Origin: a virus
IMG/VR virus record: IMGVR_UViG_3300006753_000064
Coordinates: 1 to 25,265 of that record
Strand: one strand, 5' to 3'
DNA: 25,265 bases
In this document: positions 1,249 to 23,931 of the stretch, one piece after another
Position numbering within the stretch: the stretch's first letter is position 1
How the letters are laid out: each line of letters opens with the position of its first letter
Translations under genes and position numbers: made by a program
The notes under the pieces: model-generated
Seen by the model: only the letters and a program-made list of their open reading frames with translations
What the model was told of the DNA's origin: nothing
The model's database searches: none

Positions 1249-2028
1249 ATGCCTAAATCTGATAAAGGGGTGGTGAAGCGAATAATAGTAACACCTGACA
1301 AGCACTTCCCTTTACACGATCAGCATGCAATCAATTGTCTAAAGAAAACAATTGAAATAGTTAGACCAGATGCATATGTTGATTTAGGTGATGTAGGTGA
1401 GTTTCATTCATTTAGTGCGTGGAAGTTTAAACGCAAGAAGAAGCCACCTTTAGAATATTTAATTGATGATTTCACAAAGGATGTGAAAAATGTTAATAGT
1501 GGAATGGATATGATAGATGAGTCTTTAGATAAAGCAGGGTGTAAGGAGCTTTATATTACTGAAGGCAATCATGACAACTGGCTTAATAGGTCTGTTGAAA
1601 TGTATCCATACCTACCCCAGTTCAAATTTGCCAATGCTGTAAAGTTAAAAGAAAGAGGGTATACGTACTACCCATTCGGTAAACCCCTTAAATTAGGGAA
1701 ACTTTACTTCTATCATGGTCATCAATATGGTGGCCAGTATCATACTGCAAATCATCTTCGGAAGATGGGATGCAATGTAATGTACGGGCATTGGCATGAT
1801 TTACAACACATGACAGCTACACATATGGATGGACCTAAAGCTGCATGGTCAATAGGATGCTTAAAGGATATGAAGCCTGAAGCAAATAGTTGGTTGGATA
1901 ATAGGAATATAAACTGGGCACATGCTTTTGCCATAGTAGACTTTTTTAAAAAAGGTCTATTTACAGTACACATAATACAGATAATTAATGGCAAGACCTC
2001 ATTGTGGGGTGAATTAATAGAAGGCTAA
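1249..2028 (+). CDS. Calcineurin-like metallophosphoesterase
   Basis: The 259-residue product carries the metal-binding motifs of the metallophosphoesterase fold in the right order: DKH (Asp17, His19), GDVGE (Gly47-Asp48), GNHD (106-109), HGH (156-158) and GHWH (180-183). These residues normally hold two divalent metals that hydrolyse a phosphomonoester or phosphodiester. The substrate cannot be read from the sequence; phage members are often listed simply as phosphoesterases. No signal peptide is seen, so it should act in the cytoplasm. A good Shine-Dalgarno (GGGAGA) lies 6-7 bases before the ATG, and the gene starts nine bases after the holin-like gene. It sits between two tiny membrane-protein genes in what looks like a lysis/late accessory stretch. 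Fold assignment is secure; substrate and role are unknown. Confidence 0.88.
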   Translation: MPKSDKGVVKRIIVTPDKHFPLHDQHAINCLKKTIEIVRPDAYVDLGDVGEFHSFSAWKFKRKKKPPLEYLIDDFTKDVKNVNSGMDMIDESLDKAGCKELYITEGNHDNWLNRSVEMYPYLPQFKFANAVKLKERGYTYYPFGKPLKLGKLYFYHGHQYGGQYHTANHLRKMGCNVMYGHWHDLQHMTATHMDGPKAAWSIGCLKDMKPEANSWLDNRNINWAHAFAIVDFFKKGLFTVHIIQIINGKTSLWGELIEG

Positions 2029-2049
2029 ACTAAATAAAGGGAGATATAA

Positions 2050-2193
2050 ATGAGTTTCTTATCAAATTACTGGGAATTTGTTGTAATTGGATTCTTGGTT
2101 ATAGATAAAATCGTTGCACTTAGTCCATCTAAAATGGATGACTTACTATGGACTACGTTGAAGAAGATGCTAAAAAAAGCTGCTGGAAAATAG
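2050..2193 (+). CDS. Small single-helix membrane protein (47 aa)
   Basis: A 47-codon ORF with a Shine-Dalgarno (AAGGGAGA) 6 bases before its ATG. The N-terminus SFLSNYWEFVVIGFLVIDKIVA is one short hydrophobic helix, followed by SPSKMDDLLW and a Lys-rich amphipathic end (LKKMLKKAAGK). It is too short for a domain assignment. Its place near the holin-like gene and phosphoesterase suggests a membrane or lysis-related accessory role, for example a second holin or antiholin, but nothing in the sequence proves that. The ribosome site, clean stop and lack of any other use of this stretch support that it is a real gene. Confidence 0.6.
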   Translation: MSFLSNYWEFVVIGFLVIDKIVALSPSKMDDLLWTTLKKMLKKAAGK

Positions 2194-2226
2194 ATAGTGT
2201 TCTATGGTACAATAATTAACTACATT

Positions 2227-2311
2227 TGGGAGAGGACGTATATGACTCCTCCTTGTTACGCTAGGCTCACATGCTCAGACGGTTCGCTTACTGTTATGTA
2301 CTCCTCTCCCA
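2227..2311 (+). promoter_or_regulatory. Long bulged hairpin in a GC-richer gap, sequestering a Shine-Dalgarno and ATG
   Basis: Bases 2227-2236 (TGGGAGAGGA) pair fully with 2302-2311 (TCCTCTCCCA). After one bulged C (2237), bases 2238-2246 pair with 2293-2301 with two G-U pairs, giving a 19-bp stem with a 46-base apical loop. The stretch is visibly richer in G and C than its surroundings. The left arm contains a strong Shine-Dalgarno and the ATG at 2242. A shorter alternative pairing exists between GAGGA (2233-2237 region) and TCCTC just after the ATG. There is no U-tract after the right arm, so it is not a typical terminator. Possible roles: translational control of the tail gene downstream, an RNase III processing site, or a structured phage RNA. 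Pairing is seen; role is inferred. Confidence 0.55.
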
Positions 2312-2334
2312 GAAAGTTAGAAAAAGATGCCTAA
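2242..2334 (+). CDS. Possible 30-aa leader ORF coupled to the tail gene
   Basis: The ATG at 2242 lies five bases after a strong Shine-Dalgarno (GGGAGAGGA) and opens a 30-codon frame (begins MTPPCYARLTCSDG, ends RKLEKDA). Its TAA overlaps the start of the next gene as ATGCCTAA. The next gene has almost no Shine-Dalgarno of its own (GTTAGAAAAAG), so re-initiation from this ORF would explain how it is translated. Against it: the codons differ from the AT-rich usage of the neighbours, and start and Shine-Dalgarno are buried in the 19-bp stem, so the ORF may be accidental within a structured RNA. The peptide has two Cys and no recognised domain. Confidence 0.4.
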   Translation: MTPPCYARLTCSDGSLTVMYSSPRKLEKDA

Positions 2335-4765
2335 GCAGATTTATAAGATAGTTCAGTTTCATGGAGGTTTGAATAATAATTCAGATCCTAGAGATATAGC
2401 TGATAGTGAGCTTTCTGCTGCTACTGATATAATGGTAGATGAGCTGGGTAAGATTAGGCTGATGGGTGGTACTGCAGCACAAGGTGCTGCTGCTAGAACA
2501 AATGCTATAACTCCAGGTTATGGATTGTTTCAATTTAGTCATGATAGGATTGATGGACATACAGCAGGTTCTGGAGTTGAAACTGGTGCTGATTATCTAG
2601 TATTTTCTGATTCTGATACTACTGGAGTTGTTTCTATCTACAGTGGAGAAGACACTACTTGGGGAAATCCTATAACTGGATTAACTGATAATACTTCTGG
2701 TACTGGACAAAGAAAAGATGTGTTTTATAGTGTAGATGGGGCTTTAAGGGTATGTGATGCTGAGTTTAGAAATGATAATAATGTGAAGTGGTATGGATAT
2801 ATAAAAAGAACACATTTTGAGGGACTCACACCTGGTGGAGCTGCCGATGATTATAATAGTTGGGTTAGTAAGGATCAGTCAATAGCTGCTCCAACAAGAG
2901 GTTTATATTTTGGTCATACTGAACTTGTTCTTACTGGTCTAGACGGTGCTGGAGGTTCAGATGTAGATACTTTTATATGTACAGAAGCTACTGCATTTGA
3001 TGGTATGTCTACTGAATTGAATAGAGGAGATTACATTGCTGTTAATACAACTGGAACTGGCGATGGTAAGGCTAGAATAATTACTTCACGAGCAAGTGAT
3101 TCTACCATAGAAACAGATACTCTTGGTTCTGGTGACTATGTTAGTGATATAGTTATTATTGCACCATCTGCAGGTAAAGGATTTAATATATATCTTGCAG
3201 AGACTGGTACTTCTACATTAGGAAGTGGATGGACAGTAGGGGATTATGAAGTTGGAACAACCTTTATTTATGATAATAATCAGGAATCTTTGGTTTTTGA
3301 AAATGCTGGTTCAGATAATTCAAGTATTGCTGCCTCCGAAAGAATATTGGCTATCGGAGTATGTGCAACGTCTCCATATGATCCAAGAATTACAGGAGGT
3401 CGTGTTTATATAAGAATTTATGGGACAACTGATCCCTGGCAGTTTGTTGCAGAGATAAGCCTAAAATATGGTGTTAAAACAAGTATTGATGGCAGCTGGG
3501 ATCCATGGGTTATTGCCGGAACTGGTAATGCTCATGATTTAACTTCTACTGGATCAGGAGCTGCTGCTAGTAATGCTTATCTTATGAATGTAAACCCAAA
3601 ATATGGTTTTTCAAATTCACTACTTTTTAGTCCTAATGTAGAAACATATGAATCATTAAATGGATTCCCTCAAGATTTGGCTACTCTAGATGCTAGGTAT
3701 AAAACTGCAGTTGTTGCTAATAGAAAGACATATATAGGTAATGTTAAAACTACTAATGAAGATGGAGAGGAAGTGGTATTAGGTGATGCTATGCTTAAAT
3801 CTCCTGTTAATAAGTTTGATACATTTCCTATAACTAGAATAATTGAAGCTTCTATTAGAGATGGTGATGAGATAATTAAATTAGAAGAATATGCAGATAG
3901 AATATTACAGTTTAAAAAGAATAAGATGCATTTAATTAATATATCTCAAGAGGTAGAGTTCTTAGAAGATACATTTTTACATAAGGGAGTATCACATCCT
4001 GCTGCTACTTGTAAGACTGATTTTGGTATAGCATGGGTAAATAAACTTGGATGCTATCTGTATGATGGACAGAAGGTAACTAATTTACTTGAGAAGGAGG
4101 GTAGGCAGATAATAAAAGAGAGTGAATGGGATACATTTACTACTAATGAACCTATGATTGGATATATCCCAAAGAAAAGACAGCTTCTTATTGTAGATGA
4201 TAATAGTATTACTGGTACTGGTAAGACATTTTTATATGATTTGGTAACACGATCTTGGGTTAAAGGAGCTGATACTACTATAACAAGTCAAGCTTTAACA
4301 AATTTTGTTGTAGATTGGAATGGTGATCTAGCATATGTTCATACTAGTAATACTGGTACTGTAGTTAAATGGGATGATGCTAGTGATATTCAAGCATCTG
4401 GTCATGTTCAAATATATACAAAAGATATAGATTTTGGACAACCTGGACAGAAAAAGACAGTATATAAAGTATATATAACATATAAAAGTAATGGAGCTAC
4501 TAATATAAGAGTTCAGTATGATGATGATGGAGGTGATTTCTCTAGTCCGAAAAATTTTTCTTCTTCTTCTGTTCTTTTTGATAGTAATCTGGAATTAGAA
4601 GATACTTCTGGAGAATGGGGTGTAGCTGAATTAGTACCAGATACTCCTTCACAGTCTAGTAATATAAAATCATTTCGGTTACGTTTTTGGAATAATGGAA
4701 ATACACCAGCTGACTTTGAAATTAATGATATATCAATAGTTTATAGATTAAAAGGTGTAAGATAA
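2327..4765 (+). CDS. Large tail protein, possible tail hub/DNA-stabilisation protein
   Basis: An 812-residue soluble, beta-rich, Gly/Thr/Asp-rich protein with no signal peptide. Its N-terminus (VQFHGGLNNNSDPRDIAD, then SELSAATDIMVDELGKIRLM) follows the pattern F-x-GG-[IL]-N ... P ... A-x-[ND]-x-x-[VI]-D ... G-x-[IL] that opens many short-tailed phage tail hub or packaged-DNA stabilisation proteins (P22 gp10-like, and podovirus tail tube B types). The middle has repeated blade-like segments (for example IGYIPKKRQLLIVDDNS, FLYDLVTRSWVKG), consistent with a beta-propeller. The last 130 residues look like a beta-sandwich (TVYKVYITYKSNGATNIRV ... SFRLRFWNNG). It lies directly upstream of a fibre-like gene, with three bases between them. 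Virion tail role is fairly safe; the exact protein is not. Translation probably depends on coupling to the 30-codon ORF. Confidence 0.6.
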   Translation: MPKQIYKIVQFHGGLNNNSDPRDIADSELSAATDIMVDELGKIRLMGGTAAQGAAARTNAITPGYGLFQFSHDRIDGHTAGSGVETGADYLVFSDSDTTGVVSIYSGEDTTWGNPITGLTDNTSGTGQRKDVFYSVDGALRVCDAEFRNDNNVKWYGYIKRTHFEGLTPGGAADDYNSWVSKDQSIAAPTRGLYFGHTELVLTGLDGAGGSDVDTFICTEATAFDGMSTELNRGDYIAVNTTGTGDGKARIITSRASDSTIETDTLGSGDYVSDIVIIAPSAGKGFNIYLAETGTSTLGSGWTVGDYEVGTTFIYDNNQESLVFENAGSDNSSIAASERILAIGVCATSPYDPRITGGRVYIRIYGTTDPWQFVAEISLKYGVKTSIDGSWDPWVIAGTGNAHDLTSTGSGAAASNAYLMNVNPKYGFSNSLLFSPNVETYESLNGFPQDLATLDARYKTAVVANRKTYIGNVKTTNEDGEEVVLGDAMLKSPVNKFDTFPITRIIEASIRDGDEIIKLEEYADRILQFKKNKMHLINISQEVEFLEDTFLHKGVSHPAATCKTDFGIAWVNKLGCYLYDGQKVTNLLEKEGRQIIKESEWDTFTTNEPMIGYIPKKRQLLIVDDNSITGTGKTFLYDLVTRSWVKGADTTITSQALTNFVVDWNGDLAYVHTSNTGTVVKWDDASDIQASGHVQIYTKDIDFGQPGQKKTVYKVYITYKSNGATNIRVQYDDDGGDFSSPKNFSSSSVLFDSNLELEDTSGEWGVAELVPDTPSQSSNIKSFRLRFWNNGNTPADFEINDISIVYRLKGVR

Positions 4766-9029: not shown

Positions 9030-10571
9030 ATGGCAACAGGTATATCAGGAATATTACAGATAATACAACAGCAACAAGCAGCTGAAGAGAGAAAAGAAGC
9101 TAGGCAGCAGAATTTAGCTTTAACTCTTCTTAGTATGGAGATGAGGGAAGCTGAGAGTGCCAGAAGTGTTCTTCTTAAGGAATATTATAATAAAAGGGAT
9201 GAAGTAGCAAAGACTGAAGAGATGTTTGATAAGTATAGTGCTGCAGATCCTGATTATAAATCTCCAGATGGTATGGATATGATCAAGATAGTAGACGAAC
9301 AGAATAAAATTGATATGGGAGCTGTTGTTCAAAATCTTGATTCTTTAACTACTTATGAAAATAAGTTAGAGGCATCATTGTTTGAGTTAGAGTCCCAGGG
9401 GCAGAAGTTACAAGAACTACAGTCTACTATAAATCCAAATACTGGTAGACCATTTTGGGGAGTGAATAAAATTTTACAACCTTTTGAGTATAGACAATTA
9501 AAAGAATATGCATTAACTCCAGTTGAGGAAGGTGGCCTAGGGTGGCCTACTACAGCAGGTGCGGATGTTGAATACTATAAGACTGATGCTTCTACAAGAG
9601 AAATTCAGTCCTTTCAATTCACAGAGAAACTGAAAAAGGATACAAAGGTTGGAGCTGAGGGAACTTATGCTATATTACAAGCTATGTATACTCCAGGTGA
9701 AGGTGAGAATACTGATGATTTGGTAGACAAACTTACTTATGAAGATGTAGCAACTGGAAAGGATATAGAGCCTTCTGAGGAAGTTGTATCTGCTATACAG
9801 AGTATGGCTGCACAAAGTTATGATTATGATGATTTCTTAACTAATCTAAATGCTTACCCAGCATCAGGTGGTGGTGATTTAATTAGAGCAGAGTTACTTA
9901 ATAATCCCAATACAGCACAGTTATTTAGTAATCTAAAGACTGGTGCTGATTTGATTAGGACTTTAGATGATGAGCTTGCTGGTATTAATCAGCCAGATGA
10001 CGTTACAGATTTTGATAGATTTGTAGCTGATATTTCAGGAGTTACAAATGAAGAAGCTTTATTTGGTCTTTATGATGAAGCAATAGCTGGTAGAGATCCA
10101 GCATTACATGATAAGTTTTTTGATGTAGTAGAGGCACAGCTTGGTGGAATAGATGCAGGTAAGGCATATATGAAATATAAGGGTTTTTATGATCCACCAG
10201 ATGATCCGCCAGATGATCCATCAAAAGTAACAAGTGAACTAGAAACTAGTATAGAAGATTTATCTGAAAAACTAAACCTTTTATGGGAATCAGGCTTTCA
10301 TGGTACAGAGGCATATGAGAATATTAGTGATAGTTTGAAGGTTTTAAATCAAGAACTTAGGCAAAAACAAACTTATGAAAATTATGTTGAAGAATTGAAT
10401 AGAAAATTATCACAAGGAATAATGACTGAAGAGGAGCTATCTGAGCTTTCTTCTCTTGTCGATATAAGTGTGGAGGATTTAAAAGCAGCAATGGAAAAAA
10501 GACATCAACGAGAAATAACTAGAGCTCCATCTCCCCGTAGAGCTTTTTATGAAGCAGGGTTACAAGAATAA
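9030..10571 (+). CDS. Helical internal virion protein, T7 gp15-like in position
   Basis: A 513-residue protein. Residues 1-130 are a long charged helix/coiled coil (ISGILQIIQQQQAAEERKEA, then RKEARQQNLALTLLSMEMRE). The middle is acidic and mixed, and a Pro/Asp repeat (DPPDDPPDDP, from residue 388) acts as a linker made from near-identical 12-base units. The last 110 residues are another Glu/Leu-rich coil. There is a usable Shine-Dalgarno (AAGGGGAAA) 4-5 bases before the ATG. The stop overlaps the start of the giant gene as TAATG. Its place between a gp14-like and a giant gp16-like protein suggests the middle ejection protein, which would line the channel through the cell envelope. No enzymatic motif is seen. 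Confidence 0.5.
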   Translation: MATGISGILQIIQQQQAAEERKEARQQNLALTLLSMEMREAESARSVLLKEYYNKRDEVAKTEEMFDKYSAADPDYKSPDGMDMIKIVDEQNKIDMGAVVQNLDSLTTYENKLEASLFELESQGQKLQELQSTINPNTGRPFWGVNKILQPFEYRQLKEYALTPVEEGGLGWPTTAGADVEYYKTDASTREIQSFQFTEKLKKDTKVGAEGTYAILQAMYTPGEGENTDDLVDKLTYEDVATGKDIEPSEEVVSAIQSMAAQSYDYDDFLTNLNAYPASGGGDLIRAELLNNPNTAQLFSNLKTGADLIRTLDDELAGINQPDDVTDFDRFVADISGVTNEEALFGLYDEAIAGRDPALHDKFFDVVEAQLGGIDAGKAYMKYKGFYDPPDDPPDDPSKVTSELETSIEDLSEKLNLLWESGFHGTEAYENISDSLKVLNQELRQKQTYENYVEELNRKLSQGIMTEEELSELSSLVDISVEDLKAAMEKRHQREITRAPSPRRAFYEAGLQE

Positions 10572-13500
10572 TGCCATTACCAAAGGAATATTACGATATA
10601 TTAAAGTCAGGAGATAGACCTGTAACTTCTCCCACACAACCCTCTGGAATGTATCCAGATATAACTCCAGATGTACAAGGAGATCAGGATAGTGCTTGGG
10701 CTTCTATTGGAGATTTTATGTGGCAATTTGGTGCTGGTGGTGTATCGGGACTTACTTGGGGAGCTGCTGAATTAGCTGCTCCATCTAAGCCTTGGGAGGA
10801 AATGAGTGGTGCTGAAAAATCAGGATGGATATTAGGTGAGGGTGCTTCACTATTTGCACCTTGGGGGCCATTTGGATTGCTTGGTAAGGGCTCTAGACTA
10901 GCTGCTAAGGGTGCTAATAAGTTTGTTGGTAAGGCAGCACAAGAGGCTGCTGAAACAGGTATAGCAAACTTAACTGTGAAACAAGGTGCGGCTGTAGCTG
11001 CAGCTAAAGCAAAGGGTGTTGATTTTTCAGATGATATAGTACAAGGTTTAAATAAGCTAGCCAAGGATGATTTAGGTGTTAAATGGATTAAAGATTTAAG
11101 TGCTACTGGTACTGCAGCTCTTAATGCTAGTGATAATTTAGCAGCTACTGGTACACGAGCTGTAATGAAATCATTTAAAGATGCTGGTATGGATATAGTA
11201 GAACGAGATGCTGCAAAGATAGCAGGTGAATTTGTTGAGAGTGTAAAGGGTGGTACCTATGTAAATGATGTAGCTGAATGGGTTGCTCGTGGTCTAGCAG
11301 GCCGTATACCTGATACTGCAAAGGGCTTTATGTCTAAATATCTTGGTATGGCAGCACAAGATCTAATGATGATAGGTACACATAGCCTTGTATCTGGTAA
11401 GATTAAAGCTCTTGCTAATGGTGAGGACTTTGATGCAACTGGAGCTTTAAGTCATGCAGGTTTAATGTCGCTTGGCTTCCCACTTATAAGGATGATACCT
11501 GGTGGTGGAGTGGCTAATATATCTACTGGTGTTAAAGCTTACATGGGCAAGTTTAAGAATACTAACTATAAAGCTATTGAAGAAGCACATGGTTCAGATG
11601 TAGTTAAGAATATGCTTAAACTTATGGTACGTGGAGAAAGAAAAGATTTATGGAGTAGGAGTAAGTTGGGTGATGCTTGGTGGAAAGCAGGAGGTAAGAT
11701 ATATAAAAGTGCTGAAGAAATAGAAAGAGCTTTACCTAAAATGAAGATGGCTGATGTTCATACTTTACTTAATAAGATGAATAAGACTGCCAATCAAGAG
11801 CTTTTAAAGAAATGGGGTCCTGGATTTTTATCTGATCTTGGTAGATCAGTACCAAGAATGGGTGTAGGTGTTCTTGCTATGAATCCTTGGATACTTGATA
11901 AGGATGCTTGGGGATCTATGGAAGGTCCTGAATTAGCATCCCATATGTTTATGTCTGCTATAATGACTAAGGGTAGAGGTGCTTGGGGGCATAAAGAACA
12001 GCGTGCATACTTTGCAGACTTTACTCCTTATCATGAAGCTTTGCATTTACTTGGTGTAAATACTGAGAATGTACAAGATGTTCTTAGATTTCATAATGGT
12101 AAGGCTGTATATGAAGGTATGGGTCTTGCCCTTGGTACGCATGAAGTTGGTCAAGAACTTGTAAGTATCTTTGATGGTGAGTTAAAGACTGCTGAATCTA
12201 GACCATCTGGTAGGGATTTTAGTAATCCTGATCATGCTCTAGTTGTAGATCTTGGCAATTTATATAATGTAATAAAGAATCAGGCTGATCCAGATTTTAA
12301 ACCTATTAAGATGGAGAATTTAGATGCTAAAACTTTAAGTAATCTATCTAATAAATTAAAAGGTCTTAAGTTTTCTGATGGTAATACAGTTGATGATATA
12401 GGATATGAGGGTGCTTTAGTTAAACTTACTTCTGATACTAGAGCTCGTGGGATTGAGATATATAAGCAGATGATGGCTTCTCTTGGTAGTGAACTTGGAT
12501 ATGATGTAGCTGTAACTAAAGAAGGCAGGGTTACTGGTAGCTATGTATTATCTAATAAAGAAAATAAACCAATTGATGATGCTAATACTTACAATAGAGT
12601 ATTAGATGCTTTAAGAAATATTAATGAAGCTGACGTCAAGACTGGTATAGATGCTGATGCTCAAAAGCAGAACTATGAAAAGATGGTAAGAGATAGTGGA
12701 CTTACTGAAGAACAATTTAATATAAGAACTCGTGAAATTATTGATGAACATATGGATGTTCTTGGCAGGGAGTACGGTGATAAGAATATCTATAGAGATC
12801 CTGTTAAGGAAAATCCACTGTGGAAGTTTTTCGAGCAGGCTAAAAATGTTGAAGCTGCTGAAAGAGTATACAATATAGCTCAAGGAAAGTTCCCTTCTGG
12901 AGATCCAGCAAAGGATAAGATTCTTACAGAAAATTTAGATACATTATTCAAGTTAACTGATGATAGGTATGCTTCATCTATAGATTCATATAAAAATCTT
13001 ATTAAAGGACTTATTAAAGATCCCCAGACTGATAAAGAGAAAGCTGCTAACGAATCTATAATAGAAAATATTGAAGATCTTCGTCTATTATTTGATTTGA
13101 GGAAACAAGCATTAGGTGGCACTTCTAAAAAAGATGCTAGTGAAAGAGGTATTATAGATGCTGAAGGATTGTCTATAGTACAAAGAAAATGGCAGGATAT
13201 ATATAGAAGTCTTCCTGTCGAGTGGAAGCAAAATTGGGCTGGTCATACTAGAAAATTATATATTGAAAGAATGTATAAAGGACGTGGATTTGATAGAAGG
13301 GCTATCAATTTACTTAGCTTTATGTCTGATAATAATTTAGTATTACCAGGTGAAGGTGGTATTATTAATATGCCATCTAAGGAAGCTGTATTAAAAGAAC
13401 TGCAAGGTAAAGTTTCTAAAACCCAGTTAGCTGAATATGAAAGATCATTGAGTACTATTAGACAGGTACTTGGTGATGATGTAGTTAGGGAAATAGATTG

Positions 13501-16500
13501 GGCCTTTACTGAAAGTGGCAGGAGGCAGCTTGAAGAAGTAGATATGAGTAATTATATTAAGGCTGCAAAGTTACTTGGTAATGAAATGTATTCAGATATG
13601 CTTGTTAATACTCAAGCAACTCTTCAAGAGATTGGCTCTAAATCTGGAGGTATGAGGAGAAGAATACATGAATTACATAATGAAATTACTACTCTTCTTG
13701 ATACATTCGATCCAACTACTAACAAAGCTCCTGTTAAAGATCCAATTGGTGAAATCAATGCTTTAAAAGATAAGCTTATGTCTTTAGAACAAGTAGCTAG
13801 AACTAAAGAAAGTAAGGAGGATCTTGGTGAAGTTATTGTTCAGCTACATACTTTAATTGATTCCATTGATCCGGCTACAAGTAGGTTTAATATTTCTAAA
13901 AAGAGAATCCTTACTGAAGAAGAGCAGTTGACTGGTGATGAATATGGAATACATGATGCTTTAACTCGTCCAATACAAACAACTTTATCTAGGTTATTTG
14001 CTAAAGAGCATGAGTCTATTGATAGATTAAGAGAGCTTGTTGTTAAGTTGGAAAATCTTTCTGCTAGCGGTAGAGCTGGACTTGGTCTTGATAAGTCTGA
14101 TACTATGAGAATCCTAGAAGATCTATCAAGAGAATGGTATGAGACTTATAAGGGAGAAAAGGGTAAAGGTGTTAAGGTATTATCCGAGCTTATCACAGAA
14201 ATAAATGAAAAGGGTTTCTTTGGTGATGCTATTAAATTATTAGAAGGTGTTAATGAGCGTGTTAATCGTGAGGTTATTCTAAATAATGAACATCATCCTC
14301 TCAATGAAGACGGTGTACGTATGTCTGAATCACTTGAAAAGGGATATAAAACACATGAGCATCATCGTACTCCTATTGAGATAGCAAAAGATTATGGTCT
14401 TGTAGATAAGGATGGCAAGATAGACCAAGGCTTTAAGAAAGCTGTATCTCAGAATCCGTATAGAGCTTTAGCTGATAATGTACGTGAGAAGATATTTGCT
14501 CAAGATCCTGCAAAGAAAACTATATCCCAAAAGGAGGCTGAGTGGAGAAGGTTTAGAGAGAAGGATGCTGTTGAGCTTTTAACTAACATTCTAAATTCCC
14601 AGCCCATTAATAGGGTGAAGATACTTGGCATTACAAAGGCTGGTGAAAAGCGTGGCATTCTTGAGTTTAATAATAATGCTCCACATATACAACATCCCAA
14701 TACTAAGTACTTTAATGATAAAGGTTATAAAGTTCACTGGATAGATGATACAATTAGTATTGATATCGGTGATGGTAGACTTAGGAATGCAAGCATCAGT
14801 ACTTTTGAGAGTCCAGATCAGATTCAGAAGTTTTTAAATGAAGCTTTACGTACCGACAAAATTACACAAGAGATACTTGATGGCTTCCAATCTATAGATC
14901 CAGGTTTAGGTCAGAGAGATATAAGAAAGATTTTAAAGAATCCTACTGATTATGTATTCTATTTAAGATTATCTCCCATGGATAAAATGATGTTTATAGG
15001 TACTGAAAAGAATCTTAAAGTTATGGATACAGAGTTTGAAGCTTGGTATAATAAAGCTTTAAGTAGATATTCTGGTAAAGAACGTGACGTCTTTGAACAA
15101 ATGTTTGGGCATTTAAGGACTGCTTCTAATAGCTCACGTCATATGGTAGAACTTAAAATGCTTTTACCTTATATTGAACATACTGGTAGAAGAAGTTCTC
15201 TTAACGAAATGATTGCAGAATATGCTGGAGATGCAAGACCTCAGACTCTTGCTAAGATAGAAGCTAATATGTTTAAGCGTGGATTCTTATTTGATGGTGG
15301 CACTACTCAGCCTATGAGATATGAAGTATTAGATTGGATGAAAAATCATCATCCTAATACAGAAATTAAAGAAGAGGCTAATCGTGTTTTACAGAATGGT
15401 GGATTTGTTACAGGCTTAATTGCTGATAAAGCAGCAGAAGGAGATAAATCCCACCCATTAAATATAGAAAATGTAGAAATGGGACAGCTTCAGATTATAG
15501 GTAATCAAGCATCTGGTTTAGTTAAAGAAATAGCTCTAGCACAACAAAGGTCTTTAGATGGTATGCCTAGTTTAATGGCTTCTTTACTTGATGGTGGTAA
15601 GTTTGCATCTGAAAGAGTGGCGAAACTTGTTATGGCTCAAAAAGGTATGCTTGATACAGATTTTACTAATAGTCCTAATGGAGCTAAGACAATTATATTC
15701 GCTACAGGTGCTAATCAAATGGGTGGTAAGGGTTATTTGATATATCATCCAGAGATAGCAGCACACATGCCTGATGGTGTAGATATATTACTTGGAGAAA
15801 CATCTGCTAAAACTTATGATGGTATAGCTATAAATGGTTCTAAGCTTTCAGCTTATGATATATCTGGAGCTGGTCCTGAATGGCAGAGTTCAATAAGAAA
15901 TATGGGTAATGGCAATAAAATGTTACTACCTATTGAAAGTCTTGGTGTATCATTTACATCTAAGACTGAGACTGGTGTTACTATATCTCCTTCTATTTTT
16001 GACTTTCAATCTCCAAAAGCAATAGATAAAGCTGTTGCGTGGATGGGATTTGAGGCTAAGTTAAAACAAATTGGTATACAATGGAACTCAGTTCATAGAG
16101 ATGGTGCTAAACTATCTGAATGGTTATATGAAATAGGGCAGTCTGAAGGCAATCCATTAGATAAGGGTGATATGGGACTTACTAAGTTACTATTTAGTTA
16201 TGGTGCTATGCCTAATGCTCCTTATGTACAAAAGGCTCTTAGGAGATTACTCCGCAGTTCAAACTATAAGCATCTTGGTAAAGTATCTAACCAGAAAGGT
16301 GGTGAAGATAATTTCATTATACCTAATATTAAAGGTGACTTGTCTGTTCCTTTGTATGCAGAATTACATGTAACAGGATATAGATTTGATCCAACAACAG
16401 GTAAAGATATACGTGGACCCGGAGAGCAAATAGATAGAGCTGCTGTAACTTATGGTGGCATAGGTCTCAATAGAAATACTGCTAAAAGACAGTTGGGTAA

Positions 16501-19477
16501 TGGAATTGGATCTAATCTTGAAGGTGAGAGATTTATATTTAGAGATGGTAATGGTGTAGATGTAGTAATTGGTATAGAGAATGGTAAGCCTAAGTTTTAT
16601 AGCACCTTTTATTCTAAGGTTGGTAAAGATATTCAGTATAAAGGTACAGATGCTAGTGGTGCAGATACTTTTCGTGATGCTAACATTAGTATGGAATCTA
16701 CGAGTAAAGCAAAGGCTGAACATCAATTAAAAGATCTTATGGATAAGGTTAAGAAACATGATCTTAATTACTTTGATGTGTTTAGGCTATTAGATGGACA
16801 GACTATAACCAAGGTCAAAAGTGGTGTAGCTACTACATTTAATATACCTGTGGATGCCAATCTAAAGATGCAGTTTGGAGTTATGTCTCACGCTATACCA
16901 GTTATTGGACATGATAAAGTTATATTCCGTGTAGAGAAAATATTAGATAATATGAATGGCCTTGCTGAGGTAAATGTACATGATCTTCGCACTGTAATGC
17001 AGAGAGATAATGATGGTGACCATTTATATACACATACTAGATTGCCTTGGGAAGTATTTAAATCATTCGCTAGTGAAAATGGACGCAAGGATGATTTTAG
17101 AATGTTTCAAGGAAGGGAAGAAGTTCTCAATAGAGATTATATTAATATCTTTGGCATAGGTGAAGGTGGTAAGGCAGGAGAGAATGGAGAACAAGTAGGT
17201 TTCCAAAATTATGCTTCCAAGTTACATAAAGCACAAATGATGATAGGTGAGGTAATAGGTGCAAGAAGTGCTATCTCTTGGTTGAATAGAGTAGGCTTTA
17301 ATATGGAGGGCACTCCTCTTCTTAAGGATATGCTTACTAAAAATAAGATGAGTTCAGATCATTGGAAGACAATGGATAAGTTCTATGATACTATTCAGAA
17401 TGCTATAGATATTCATGGTGGTATTCATGAAGCTTTACAAACTAGAAATAAATTAAAAGACTTCTTATTCTTTGGCCATAAGGAGCAGTATGCAGAGCCT
17501 ACTGGTGATCCAGTATTTGATAAGCATAATCAACCAGGGCTTGGATTCTTTAACGATAAAACTTTTGGCAAGACAGCATTACAGAAGAAACTATTTTATG
17601 AAATACTTAGGACTCTAAAGAAAGCTAATATGATACAGAATGATACTTGGGATGAAAGAGGTAGTCGTTCTCCTGAACCATTTGAAATTAGAAATGCTTA
17701 TTATGATATAAGAGCTTTCTTTGCTAACCCTAATGCTTATTTAGCTAAGCAGTTATCTAGAGAGATAGGTCGTACGAGTGATGCTGATGGTACAAGATCA
17801 AAGTTGGTATCTGAATATGCAGAGATGTTTTATGGTGATACTTATGATATTAAGAGACGTGATGGAAGAAAGGCTTTATATTTTGATATATTAAAAGGCA
17901 AGCACGATAGTATAATGAAGCAGAAATTTAATTTTAGTAATATTCCTGCTGATGATCCTGTTGCTGCGTTTGATAGGTCTATAGGTGGATATGTAATGAA
18001 AAGATTGCTTGGAACTAATGGATTCTGGGATGCCAATTATGGTGGGTTGGAAAATGGCAATAGAGATATGTATAATAAGGCAGGGTTCTTTGTTAAAAGT
18101 ATTGAAAGTTTTGTAGAGACAGCTCGTATGTTTGGTGATAATCCAGTGGAAGCAGCAGGTGATAGGGCTGCTGGTGCTATGACAATCAGATCATTTGATA
18201 CTGCACCTGTCTCTCCTGAAATAAGGAACTCTTTAAATAATGGTGTACTTAGAGAATTAATACAGAGACAACATAGAAATGTAATGGGAACTCTGGATTA
18301 TTTTAGATCAGAAAGGTTTTCTAATGCTGACAAGGTAGAAAAATTACAGAGAAGGCTTGGTAATTTACAATCTGCTATGGATATAATGGACAATCAGATA
18401 GCTAAGAATATGGTTATTGAAATTGCAGATCCAAGTATTATTACTCCAAAGAAACCTGGAAAGTATCCTTTTAATAGGCTACCAAAGGGCAAGAAGATTG
18501 CCATGTATAGAATTAAAGGTGATGTTAGAGTTCTTAATAAAGATGAAAAGGCTACTCTTTTCAATCATTCAATAGATGCAGAGAAGAACTTAGATTATGG
18601 ACAGCTTGAATTTGTAGGTAATTTTGATAGGAATAGTAAGCCCATATTTACAAGACAGGGCTATACATATCTAATAGATAATAAACCTAAGCAACGTATC
18701 TCTCAAAGTAGTAATGAATCTAGATATTCTATGGCTTTATTTAAAGCTACGTATGGTAATGATATTACTCCAGAGAGATTTATTAAGACAGAGAATGTAT
18801 CTGATTTTAGAGATGATGTTCGTAGACTTAGGGCATCTATTAGTATAGATTATATCAAGACAGTACAGGATGCTTTATCTAGTCGTGTATTAAGCGATGG
18901 TCTTTATTCTTTAGAACAAGTTAAGGAGGGTAGAGCTATAGCTGAATTTGTAGAACGTTGGAGTGATAGTGTCATTGAAAGTAAGGATCCTATGACTGTA
19001 CTTCTTAGATATTTATTACAACCACAAGTTACACCTTCATCATATTATAAAGATGCTCAAGGCCATGAGATGCCTGCTTATAAAACTAATGAACATTTAT
19101 ATAAAACTCTTTTACAATGGGCAGAAAACAATGGGCATCATGATTTTGTAAGGCAATTAGTAAAAGATGTTGAACATTATGCTGCTGGTAAAGATACAGA
19201 AGTAGATATTAGTAGTTATAGTAGGGGTAGCATGGATAGATTTGACTATTCAAAGCTAGGTGAAATGGCTAATCCAGTTAGATCTTTAGTTAAACATCTA
19301 AATGTATTCTTTGCTTCGCCTACGTTAAATGCTAAGTTAGATGGTATTATACCTAAGTCTAGAGGTGAAGTTAAGACAGTTATAGGTAAGGATGGTAAGA
19401 AGATACCAATACGTAGGATGCCTAAGAAGGGAGAGTACTGGAATATCCAGACTGATCAGACAGGTGAAGGTTGTTAA
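10571..19477 (+). CDS. Giant virion protein with a candidate double-psi beta-barrel RNA polymerase module (2968 aa)
   Basis: Residues 1-500 look like an ejection protein: Gly/Ala-rich amphipathic stretches (FMWQFGAGGVSGLTWGAAEL, ASLFAPWGPFGLLGKG) and PRMGVGVLAMNPWIL. Residues 500-1650 are mostly helical. Residues 2146-2155 read DNDGDHLYTH, matching the catalytic loop of RNA polymerase beta' (bacterial DFDGDQMAVH) in the three Asp, the Gly and the His five after the last Asp. Upstream, IPVDANLKMQFG (2092-2103) resembles the opening barrel strand of beta' (VGPxLxLxQCG), and GLAEVNVHDLRTVMQR resembles GKAIQLHPLVCAAYNA. Near 1706-1747, GANQMGGKG (Lys1720), then HMPDGVDILLG and SAK, resembles the beta-subunit barrel (RHGNKG ... 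DMP ... VDIxLN). The helix after 2200 (LHKAQMMIGEVIGARSAISW) could be a bridge-type helix. The beta-like-then-beta' order in one chain is that of YonO and crAss-like phage polymerases. It starts by TAATG coupling. Polymerase assignment is motif-based. Confidence 0.62.
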   Translation: MPLPKEYYDILKSGDRPVTSPTQPSGMYPDITPDVQGDQDSAWASIGDFMWQFGAGGVSGLTWGAAELAAPSKPWEEMSGAEKSGWILGEGASLFAPWGPFGLLGKGSRLAAKGANKFVGKAAQEAAETGIANLTVKQGAAVAAAKAKGVDFSDDIVQGLNKLAKDDLGVKWIKDLSATGTAALNASDNLAATGTRAVMKSFKDAGMDIVERDAAKIAGEFVESVKGGTYVNDVAEWVARGLAGRIPDTAKGFMSKYLGMAAQDLMMIGTHSLVSGKIKALANGEDFDATGALSHAGLMSLGFPLIRMIPGGGVANISTGVKAYMGKFKNTNYKAIEEAHGSDVVKNMLKLMVRGERKDLWSRSKLGDAWWKAGGKIYKSAEEIERALPKMKMADVHTLLNKMNKTANQELLKKWGPGFLSDLGRSVPRMGVGVLAMNPWILDKDAWGSMEGPELASHMFMSAIMTKGRGAWGHKEQRAYFADFTPYHEALHLLGVNTENVQDVLRFHNGKAVYEGMGLALGTHEVGQELVSIFDGELKTAESRPSGRDFSNPDHALVVDLGNLYNVIKNQADPDFKPIKMENLDAKTLSNLSNKLKGLKFSDGNTVDDIGYEGALVKLTSDTRARGIEIYKQMMASLGSELGYDVAVTKEGRVTGSYVLSNKENKPIDDANTYNRVLDALRNINEADVKTGIDADAQKQNYEKMVRDSGLTEEQFNIRTREIIDEHMDVLGREYGDKNIYRDPVKENPLWKFFEQAKNVEAAERVYNIAQGKFPSGDPAKDKILTENLDTLFKLTDDRYASSIDSYKNLIKGLIKDPQTDKEKAANESIIENIEDLRLLFDLRKQALGGTSKKDASERGIIDAEGLSIVQRKWQDIYRSLPVEWKQNWAGHTRKLYIERMYKGRGFDRRAINLLSFMSDNNLVLPGEGGIINMPSKEAVLKELQGKVSKTQLAEYERSLSTIRQVLGDDVVREIDWAFTESGRRQLEEVDMSNYIKAAKLLGNEMYSDMLVNTQATLQEIGSKSGGMRRRIHELHNEITTLLDTFDPTTNKAPVKDPIGEINALKDKLMSLEQVARTKESKEDLGEVIVQLHTLIDSIDPATSRFNISKKRILTEEEQLTGDEYGIHDALTRPIQTTLSRLFAKEHESIDRLRELVVKLENLSASGRAGLGLDKSDTMRILEDLSREWYETYKGEKGKGVKVLSELITEINEKGFFGDAIKLLEGVNERVNREVILNNEHHPLNEDGVRMSESLEKGYKTHEHHRTPIEIAKDYGLVDKDGKIDQGFKKAVSQNPYRALADNVREKIFAQDPAKKTISQKEAEWRRFREKDAVELLTNILNSQPINRVKILGITKAGEKRGILEFNNNAPHIQHPNTKYFNDKGYKVHWIDDTISIDIGDGRLRNASISTFESPDQIQKFLNEALRTDKITQEILDGFQSIDPGLGQRDIRKILKNPTDYVFYLRLSPMDKMMFIGTEKNLKVMDTEFEAWYNKALSRYSGKERDVFEQMFGHLRTASNSSRHMVELKMLLPYIEHTGRRSSLNEMIAEYAGDARPQTLAKIEANMFKRGFLFDGGTTQPMRYEVLDWMKNHHPNTEIKEEANRVLQNGGFVTGLIADKAAEGDKSHPLNIENVEMGQLQIIGNQASGLVKEIALAQQRSLDGMPSLMASLLDGGKFASERVAKLVMAQKGMLDTDFTNSPNGAKTIIFATGANQMGGKGYLIYHPEIAAHMPDGVDILLGETSAKTYDGIAINGSKLSAYDISGAGPEWQSSIRNMGNGNKMLLPIESLGVSFTSKTETGVTISPSIFDFQSPKAIDKAVAWMGFEAKLKQIGIQWNSVHRDGAKLSEWLYEIGQSEGNPLDKGDMGLTKLLFSYGAMPNAPYVQKALRRLLRSSNYKHLGKVSNQKGGEDNFIIPNIKGDLSVPLYAELHVTGYRFDPTTGKDIRGPGEQIDRAAVTYGGIGLNRNTAKRQLGNGIGSNLEGERFIFRDGNGVDVVIGIENGKPKFYSTFYSKVGKDIQYKGTDASGADTFRDANISMESTSKAKAEHQLKDLMDKVKKHDLNYFDVFRLLDGQTITKVKSGVATTFNIPVDANLKMQFGVMSHAIPVIGHDKVIFRVEKILDNMNGLAEVNVHDLRTVMQRDNDGDHLYTHTRLPWEVFKSFASENGRKDDFRMFQGREEVLNRDYINIFGIGEGGKAGENGEQVGFQNYASKLHKAQMMIGEVIGARSAISWLNRVGFNMEGTPLLKDMLTKNKMSSDHWKTMDKFYDTIQNAIDIHGGIHEALQTRNKLKDFLFFGHKEQYAEPTGDPVFDKHNQPGLGFFNDKTFGKTALQKKLFYEILRTLKKANMIQNDTWDERGSRSPEPFEIRNAYYDIRAFFANPNAYLAKQLSREIGRTSDADGTRSKLVSEYAEMFYGDTYDIKRRDGRKALYFDILKGKHDSIMKQKFNFSNIPADDPVAAFDRSIGGYVMKRLLGTNGFWDANYGGLENGNRDMYNKAGFFVKSIESFVETARMFGDNPVEAAGDRAAGAMTIRSFDTAPVSPEIRNSLNNGVLRELIQRQHRNVMGTLDYFRSERFSNADKVEKLQRRLGNLQSAMDIMDNQIAKNMVIEIADPSIITPKKPGKYPFNRLPKGKKIAMYRIKGDVRVLNKDEKATLFNHSIDAEKNLDYGQLEFVGNFDRNSKPIFTRQGYTYLIDNKPKQRISQSSNESRYSMALFKATYGNDITPERFIKTENVSDFRDDVRRLRASISIDYIKTVQDALSSRVLSDGLYSLEQVKEGRAIAEFVERWSDSVIESKDPMTVLLRYLLQPQVTPSSYYKDAQGHEMPAYKTNEHLYKTLLQWAENNGHHDFVRQLVKDVEHYAAGKDTEVDISSYSRGSMDRFDYSKLGEMANPVRSLVKHLNVFFASPTLNAKLDGIIPKSRGEVKTVIGKDGKKIPIRRMPKKGEYWNIQTDQTGEGC

Positions 19478-23713: not shown

Positions 23714-23931
23714 TTTTTAGTCCTCTCTTCTATTATTGTGTTTAGTTTAGTTTTATTCTTCTTACCATGTTCACGTAAAGCACACGCTTTACATACTTCA
23801 ATTTCTTTATAAGGATGTTCAGGGGGAATAGCAAAGTTACCATAGATATATACATGCTGTAACTTATGCGAGCCAGAACACATAGTACACTTGAAATATT
23901 TCCTTGGCAACTTTGCATTTATCCCAAACAT
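23695..23931 (-). CDS. Four-cysteine, probable zinc-ribbon protein (78 aa)
   Basis: The N-terminal half carries two CxxC pairs, Cys15/Cys18 (CTMC) and Cys47/Cys50 (CKAC), 28 residues apart, as expected of a zinc ribbon. The rest is Lys-rich (REHGKKNKTKLNTIIEERTK). Small phage zinc-ribbon proteins often bind nucleic acid or other proteins in early or middle transcription and replication; which applies here is unknown. The ATG follows the upstream stop directly (TAAATG) without a good Shine-Dalgarno, so it relies on coupling. Confidence 0.6.
   Translation of the reverse strand: MFGINAKLPRKYFKCTMCSGSHKLQHVYIYGNFAIPPEHPYKEIEVCKACALREHGKKNKTKLNTIIEERTKKWLKQY

Follow-up and report, generated by a model that had tools for sequence, protein, structure and literature searches.

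What does the long hairpin directly in front of the tail gene of this phage do, and is it kept as RNA, as DNA or only as part of a coding sequence? Within the window (the whole stretch of viral DNA analysed here, 25,265 nt), the original prediction had placed a 19-pair, one-bulge hairpin with a 46-base loop at 2227-2311, and it is present as described: the arms 2227-2246 and 2293-2311 form 19 pairs (two of them G.U) with C2237 as the single bulge and a loop of 46 nt (2247-2292), and two extra pairs, 2225-2226 with 2312-2313, lengthen the stem (Table 1). The fold of 2215-2325 has a minimum free energy of -40.4 kcal/mol, with a z of -5.2; 200 dinucleotide shuffles produced nothing equally stable. 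The region was also predicted to be clearly richer in G and C than its surroundings; GC is indeed higher (0.42 in 2200-2349 vs 0.31-0.37 immediately upstream), with a rise that is modest rather than marked. In a census of all fetched loci, chance hairpins of equal arm-pairing score occurred at a few per 780 kb, and the pooled loci held 46 strong hairpins above threshold (many of them copies) vs 37 in shuffled sequence. At such a chance rate the shuffle test is by itself no proof of function, and it is the relatives that supply it. A second long inverted repeat lies at 23822-23925 of the window (arms of 24 and 23 nt, loop of 57 nt, score 32.6).

Table 1. Features of the hairpin region and of the adjoining genes in the window
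Feature	Position	Strand	Remark
Preceding small gene, 47 aa, PHROG 402 (function not assigned by PHROG)	2050..2193	+	Part of the variable upstream gene set
Leader ORF, 45 aa, GTG start, VFYGTIINYIWERTYMTPPCYARLTCSDGSLTVMYSSPRKLEKDA	2197..2334	+	Homologues in ~25 distinct relatives
Hairpin 5' arm	2225..2246	+	Codons I-W-E-R-T-Y-M
Bulged C	2237..2237	+	Equals the 3x2 internal loop in most relatives
ATG proposed earlier as hidden start	2242..2244	+	Internal, unconserved Met codon peculiar to this phage
CTCCTCCTTG block, loop start	2246..2255	+	No variation outside the L050 lineage
Hairpin 3' arm	2293..2313	+	Codons V-M-Y-S-S-P-R
Tail nozzle gene, 812 aa	2327..4765	+	Predicted T7 gp12 / P22 gp10 podovirus fold; start ATG 2327

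The downstream gene had been read as a tail hub, and the structural prediction agrees. An AlphaFold2 model based on 30 relatives (pLDDT 79) was matched by Foldseek to cyanophage A4 (E 4e-20), SU10, Kp9, T7 gp12 (E 3e-12) and P22 gp10 (E 2e-11); the matches are consistent but of low TM-score, as expected of flexible multi-domain chains, and the predicted fold of the 812-aa protein matches that of a podovirus tail nozzle. Homologues of the nozzle gene were gathered from viral contigs, and the genome of one relative contains terminase, portal and tail fibre genes. The genes upstream of the leader ORF differ between relatives, while in those closest by nozzle gene (42-65% identity) the gap before it holds a small ORF that shares its frame with the one originally predicted, for example MAVISTYYFNWERDYTAPPWFSRLACSDGSLTVVYSSPNNLEEEDA in locus L102. 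Elsewhere in the window, a 2968-residue ORF (10571-19477) had no PHROG match.

The hairpin lies within this small ORF. The 30-codon ORF of the original prediction, from ATG 2242 to TAA 2334, does exist and overlaps the 812-aa gene, but it covers no more than the last two thirds of a longer conserved ORF, whose GTG start was assigned by alignment with the ATG of L136, L105 and L118. Its stop overlaps the nozzle start within ATGCCTAA, and both the frame and this overlap are kept in its homologues, with the exception of L068 and L069, which carry a one-base insertion; apart from that base, length differences 3' of the stem are whole codons. None of the 24 distinct cores has a stop in the leader frame, whereas stops interrupt one of the remaining frames in 24/24 and the other in 23/24, which argues for translation of the leader. 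With an alignment of the small protein as query, 32 viral loci were found, and every one of the distinct small ORFs among them stands directly 5' of a nozzle homologue; the hairpin itself occurs once per genome and only at this site (17/17 virus records). The loop varies to the same degree at each codon position, and with a pN/pS of ~0.54 the peptide looks weakly constrained and is probably of secondary importance. PHROGs and Pfam profile searches with the 45-aa protein returned nothing significant (best E 0.038), and the small protein was absent from the bacterial and archaeal genomes searched, and no provirus with it was found.

Comparison of the relatives indicates that the hairpin is a real structured RNA, kept in ~25 differing relatives. 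Most of them share a lower stem of 11 bp, a 3x2 internal loop and an upper stem of 5 bp, and in most the hairpin base ends 19 nt before the nozzle start (16 nt in the window; overall range 16-23 nt). In an alignment of 23 sequences, 92.9% of the stem cells are paired, and sliding the partner by 1-3 columns lowers this to 39-62%. Five pairs are changed on both sides, a number matched by 8 of 500 shuffles, and the covariation score was reached by none of 500; changes on both sides are few within the main type. The proposal of a structured phage RNA beside the tail gene was borne out, and the check suggested with it, compensatory stem changes in relatives, came out in its favour: diverged homologues retain the pairing, and their compensatory changes exceed what chance would give. 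Among the non-Watson-Crick cells, G.U outnumbers A.C by 40 to 3, an excess that places the structure in the sense-strand RNA. Sequence is kept along with pairing, since TGGGAGAGG (2227-2235), CTCCTCCTTG and CTCTCCC (2304-2310) do not vary in 22 of the 24 distinct sequences (the main type); elsewhere the loop is variable.

The other lineage, represented by L050, L068 and L069, carries at the corresponding place an ORF that agrees in frame and has the identical spacing of 28 codons from W to SP/PS (WYGVCTELPTFTTPFVSCGSIIAKYTPS). Its product shares ~25% protein identity with the main type (hhalign P 0.011), and DNA identity is 45-52%. Only 4-6 of the 15 letters of the stem core of L050 and L068 are common with the main type, which is near random, and pairing is nevertheless complete. 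The L050 hairpin also keeps its codon register (the paired positions add up to 84 ahead of the bulge and to 85 beyond it), with the bulge shifted by seven bases relative to the main type. This rewritten stem is the strongest single item pointing to a selected RNA structure.

The specific mechanism first attached to the hairpin fared less well. A Shine-Dalgarno (SD) sequence and start codon were thought to be sequestered in the stem, forming a switch; the supposed start, ATG 2242, is missing from all other lineages, which have TAC ACT, TGT ACT and similar letters there, and the ORF actually starts 45 nt upstream of it, outside the stem, so that the sequestered start is not conserved. Of the two mutually exclusive folds that were envisaged, one component stands: the anti-SD-like block is real and belongs to the invariant sequence of the main type, and it resembles the 3' end of 16S rRNA. 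The alternative fold is no better than chance: in representatives of the main type, 9-31% of the shuffled or recoded sequences reach it.

The leader and its hairpin behave as a cassette. On the nozzle-gene tree, hairpin presence required 8 changes (7-9 in bootstrap trees), and the divergence of the cassettes showed no relation to that of the nozzle genes (Mantel r 0.06, with 333 of 1000 permutations as high). The cassettes of L126 and L136 differ by 4% and those of L105 and L118 by 2%, with nozzle genes more than 2 substitutions per site apart, and near-identical hairpins thus precede very different nozzle proteins. Since neither its divergence nor its presence follows the nozzle tree, the cassette has been exchanged between phages, and its low dS (0.37 vs 1.33) is for this reason no evidence of constraint. 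Some of the codons in the ORF are seldom used by this phage (TCG 1.8%, CTC 2.0% and CCC 7.1% of their amino acids), which fits a foreign origin of the cassette. Many close relatives have no hairpin, and no credible covariance-model match was obtained in them; over evolutionary time it is therefore dispensable. Among isolate phages, neither the region nor the nozzle nor the small protein found a match; the L050 hairpin gave short, weak hits there (E 0.1-0.3), which were set aside.

Other small genes occupy the same site. Another cassette of ~50 aa, MIYRLRHKKRKTVLKPMPSYFGLATTSSSHSRCYFNKQHSMSYQTMTFNA, stands before the nozzle gene in L042 (4275-4470), L043 and L044 (1270-1468), and it is identical in L042 and L044 despite their differing upstream genes, which marks the pre-nozzle site as a place where small genes are exchanged in general. 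In L002, L003, L109 and L129, a shorter ORF ending in ..DYEWV.....W.W...VVYA and its stop overlaps the nozzle start and looks like the leader ORF minus its middle and the hairpin; in L129 the nozzle gene itself (1501-3665) is broken, with 42 in-frame stops, by a frameshift or an assembly error. Neither the L042-type 50-aa ORFs nor these DYEW ORFs contain such a hairpin.

Combined with the above analysis, the reading that we favour, tentatively, is that the element is a cis-acting mRNA hairpin in a translation-coupled leader ORF that tunes nozzle expression. The leader would be translated after the small gene that precedes it and ahead of the nozzle gene, and ribosomes finishing it would re-start at the nozzle start codon, termination-reinitiation being suggested by the overlap of stop and start. 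The hairpin could slow the leader ribosomes and prevent the pre-nozzle stretch from folding otherwise, and could thereby set the amount or timing of nozzle production. Stop and downstream start overlap or adjoin in the relatives, again with the exception of L068/L069; overlapped nozzle starts are usual also in relatives without the hairpin, where other small genes stand. The hairpin base lies at the edge of an initiating ribosome. Several observations speak against tuning: the hairpin leaves the nozzle start uncovered; the predicted openness of the nozzle site is little changed by the 5' arm (mean 0.60 with it vs 0.51 without, with exceptions, and the window goes the opposite way); many close relatives do without the hairpin; and the nozzle SD is poor in the window phage, although that of most hairpin phages is good. 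A more specific version of the favoured reading, possible but doubtful as a joint claim, is that a leader cassette of ~135 nt, RNA first and protein second, is exchanged among podoviruses at one fixed site and tunes nozzle synthesis there, its ORF being kept open mainly so that ribosomes traverse the selected hairpin.

The main rival, which we regard as unlikely, is processing by RNase III or another double-strand-specific enzyme, by which a cut in the operon mRNA would release a nozzle message that has a 5' end of its own, and would protect the upstream part. Processing sites in T7 mRNA have a form like the 11-bp stem, 3x2 internal loop and 5-bp stem described above, so the hairpin shape of most relatives resembles them, and the window helix of 19-21 pairs fits the near-continuous helix of ~20 bp that the enzyme would need. 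The stem letters can be replaced when pairing stays, as in L050. In addition, the mean nozzle SD is better in phages with the hairpin than in those without (-4.96 vs -3.83, p 0.004, relatedness not corrected for), as expected if the nozzle gene starts alone. It is good in most hairpin phages; the poor ribosome site ascribed to the 812-aa gene does hold in this phage, which, against that trend, pairs the strongest hairpin with the weakest nozzle SD. The hairpin moreover sits within a translated frame, and three blocks that are invariant outside L050 exceed what a cutting site needs. The unvarying sequence of the two arms and of the loop block CTCCTCCTTG outside L050, together with a single copy at one site, would suit an operator, where nozzle synthesis is repressed or timed by an RNA-binding protein of the phage or of its host. 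We consider this rather improbable: the L050 stem has almost nothing in common with the main type, the nozzle itself is an unlikely partner because near-identical hairpins precede such different nozzles, and no candidate protein was identified.

Two further explanations would deny the hairpin a role in RNA. It may be a DNA-level element, an inverted repeat serving as a recombination or mobility signal that moves the cassette between phages, in keeping with the patchy distribution, the exchange (eight presence changes and no correlation with the nozzle gene) and the differing upstream genes. This is very unlikely, because neither DNA nor an antisense structure would prefer sense-strand G.U to A.C; the element is always in one copy at the same site, ordinary homologous exchange suffices, and no recombinase is adjacent. 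That the hairpin is a by-product, of a conserved protein or of a GC-richer foreign cassette, without a role of its own, is highly improbable, even though both arms encode amino acids (WER and SP codons), the GC-richer cassette is mobile, and part of the conservation at nucleotide level stems from a recent shared origin. Pairing is lost in almost all synonymous recodings: the native arm pairing was reached by 0-7 of 500 under phage codon usage and by 0-4 of 500 under uniform usage, in every lineage tested including L050, which still pairs with other amino acids and letters. The arm codons are also fixed although others are commoner in this phage (GAG 31%, AGG 21% and CCC 7% of their amino acids). 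Several other candidates were rejected or set aside: an intrinsic terminator (the loop is 46 nt, and AAAGTTAGAAAAAGATG stands 3' of the stem where a U run is absent), a tRNA or tmRNA (no ARAGORN match), an integron attC-like site suggested by UAACU/AGUUA outer pairs (which the relatives do not have), a programmed frameshift into the nozzle gene (no conserved slippery site was seen) and freeing of the nozzle SD from the 3' arm by the hairpin (AGAG/CTCT complementarity occurs in part of the sequences only).

No Rfam 15 family reached the gathering threshold in the window or in four loci with the element (L205, L222, L232 and L068), and comparable elements were not found in the literature (open-licence papers); to our knowledge, the virion operons of DNA phages have so far yielded few structured RNAs. 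The ~25 distinct natural versions, one of them with a rewritten stem, are a ready set for work on the dosage of a ring-forming tail protein, and the element would be a regulatory leader able to travel between phages apart from the gene downstream. With Rfam's phage-associated families it shares a conserved RNA structure in phage genomes, unlike them matching no family. The T7 RNase III hairpins are likewise long, irregular and placed between structural genes, and the internal loop in a stem of ~20 bp recurs in most relatives; the candidate differs in lying within an ORF and in having invariant sequence in arms and loop. Phage operator hairpins, such as the MS2 replicase operator and the T4 RegA and gp32 sites, are also cis hairpins beside a gene start in phage mRNA, whereas here the stem is larger, the main gene start lies outside the hairpin and no binding protein was identified. 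Translation-coupled leader ORFs with RNA switches are known from IncI plasmid repY/repZ and from erm-type leader peptides. As in those systems, a short ORF containing a hairpin has its stop next to or overlapping the main start, and leader translation is expected to affect the main gene. Unlike in them, nothing indicates that the hairpin buries the main start or that there is a conserved stall peptide or a pseudoknot, and the cassette is exchanged in front of a virion gene. Set beside these systems, the element appears to be a new candidate within a familiar class of RNA, the structured leader ORF, and its unusual features are the site before a virion nozzle gene and the cassette-like exchange.
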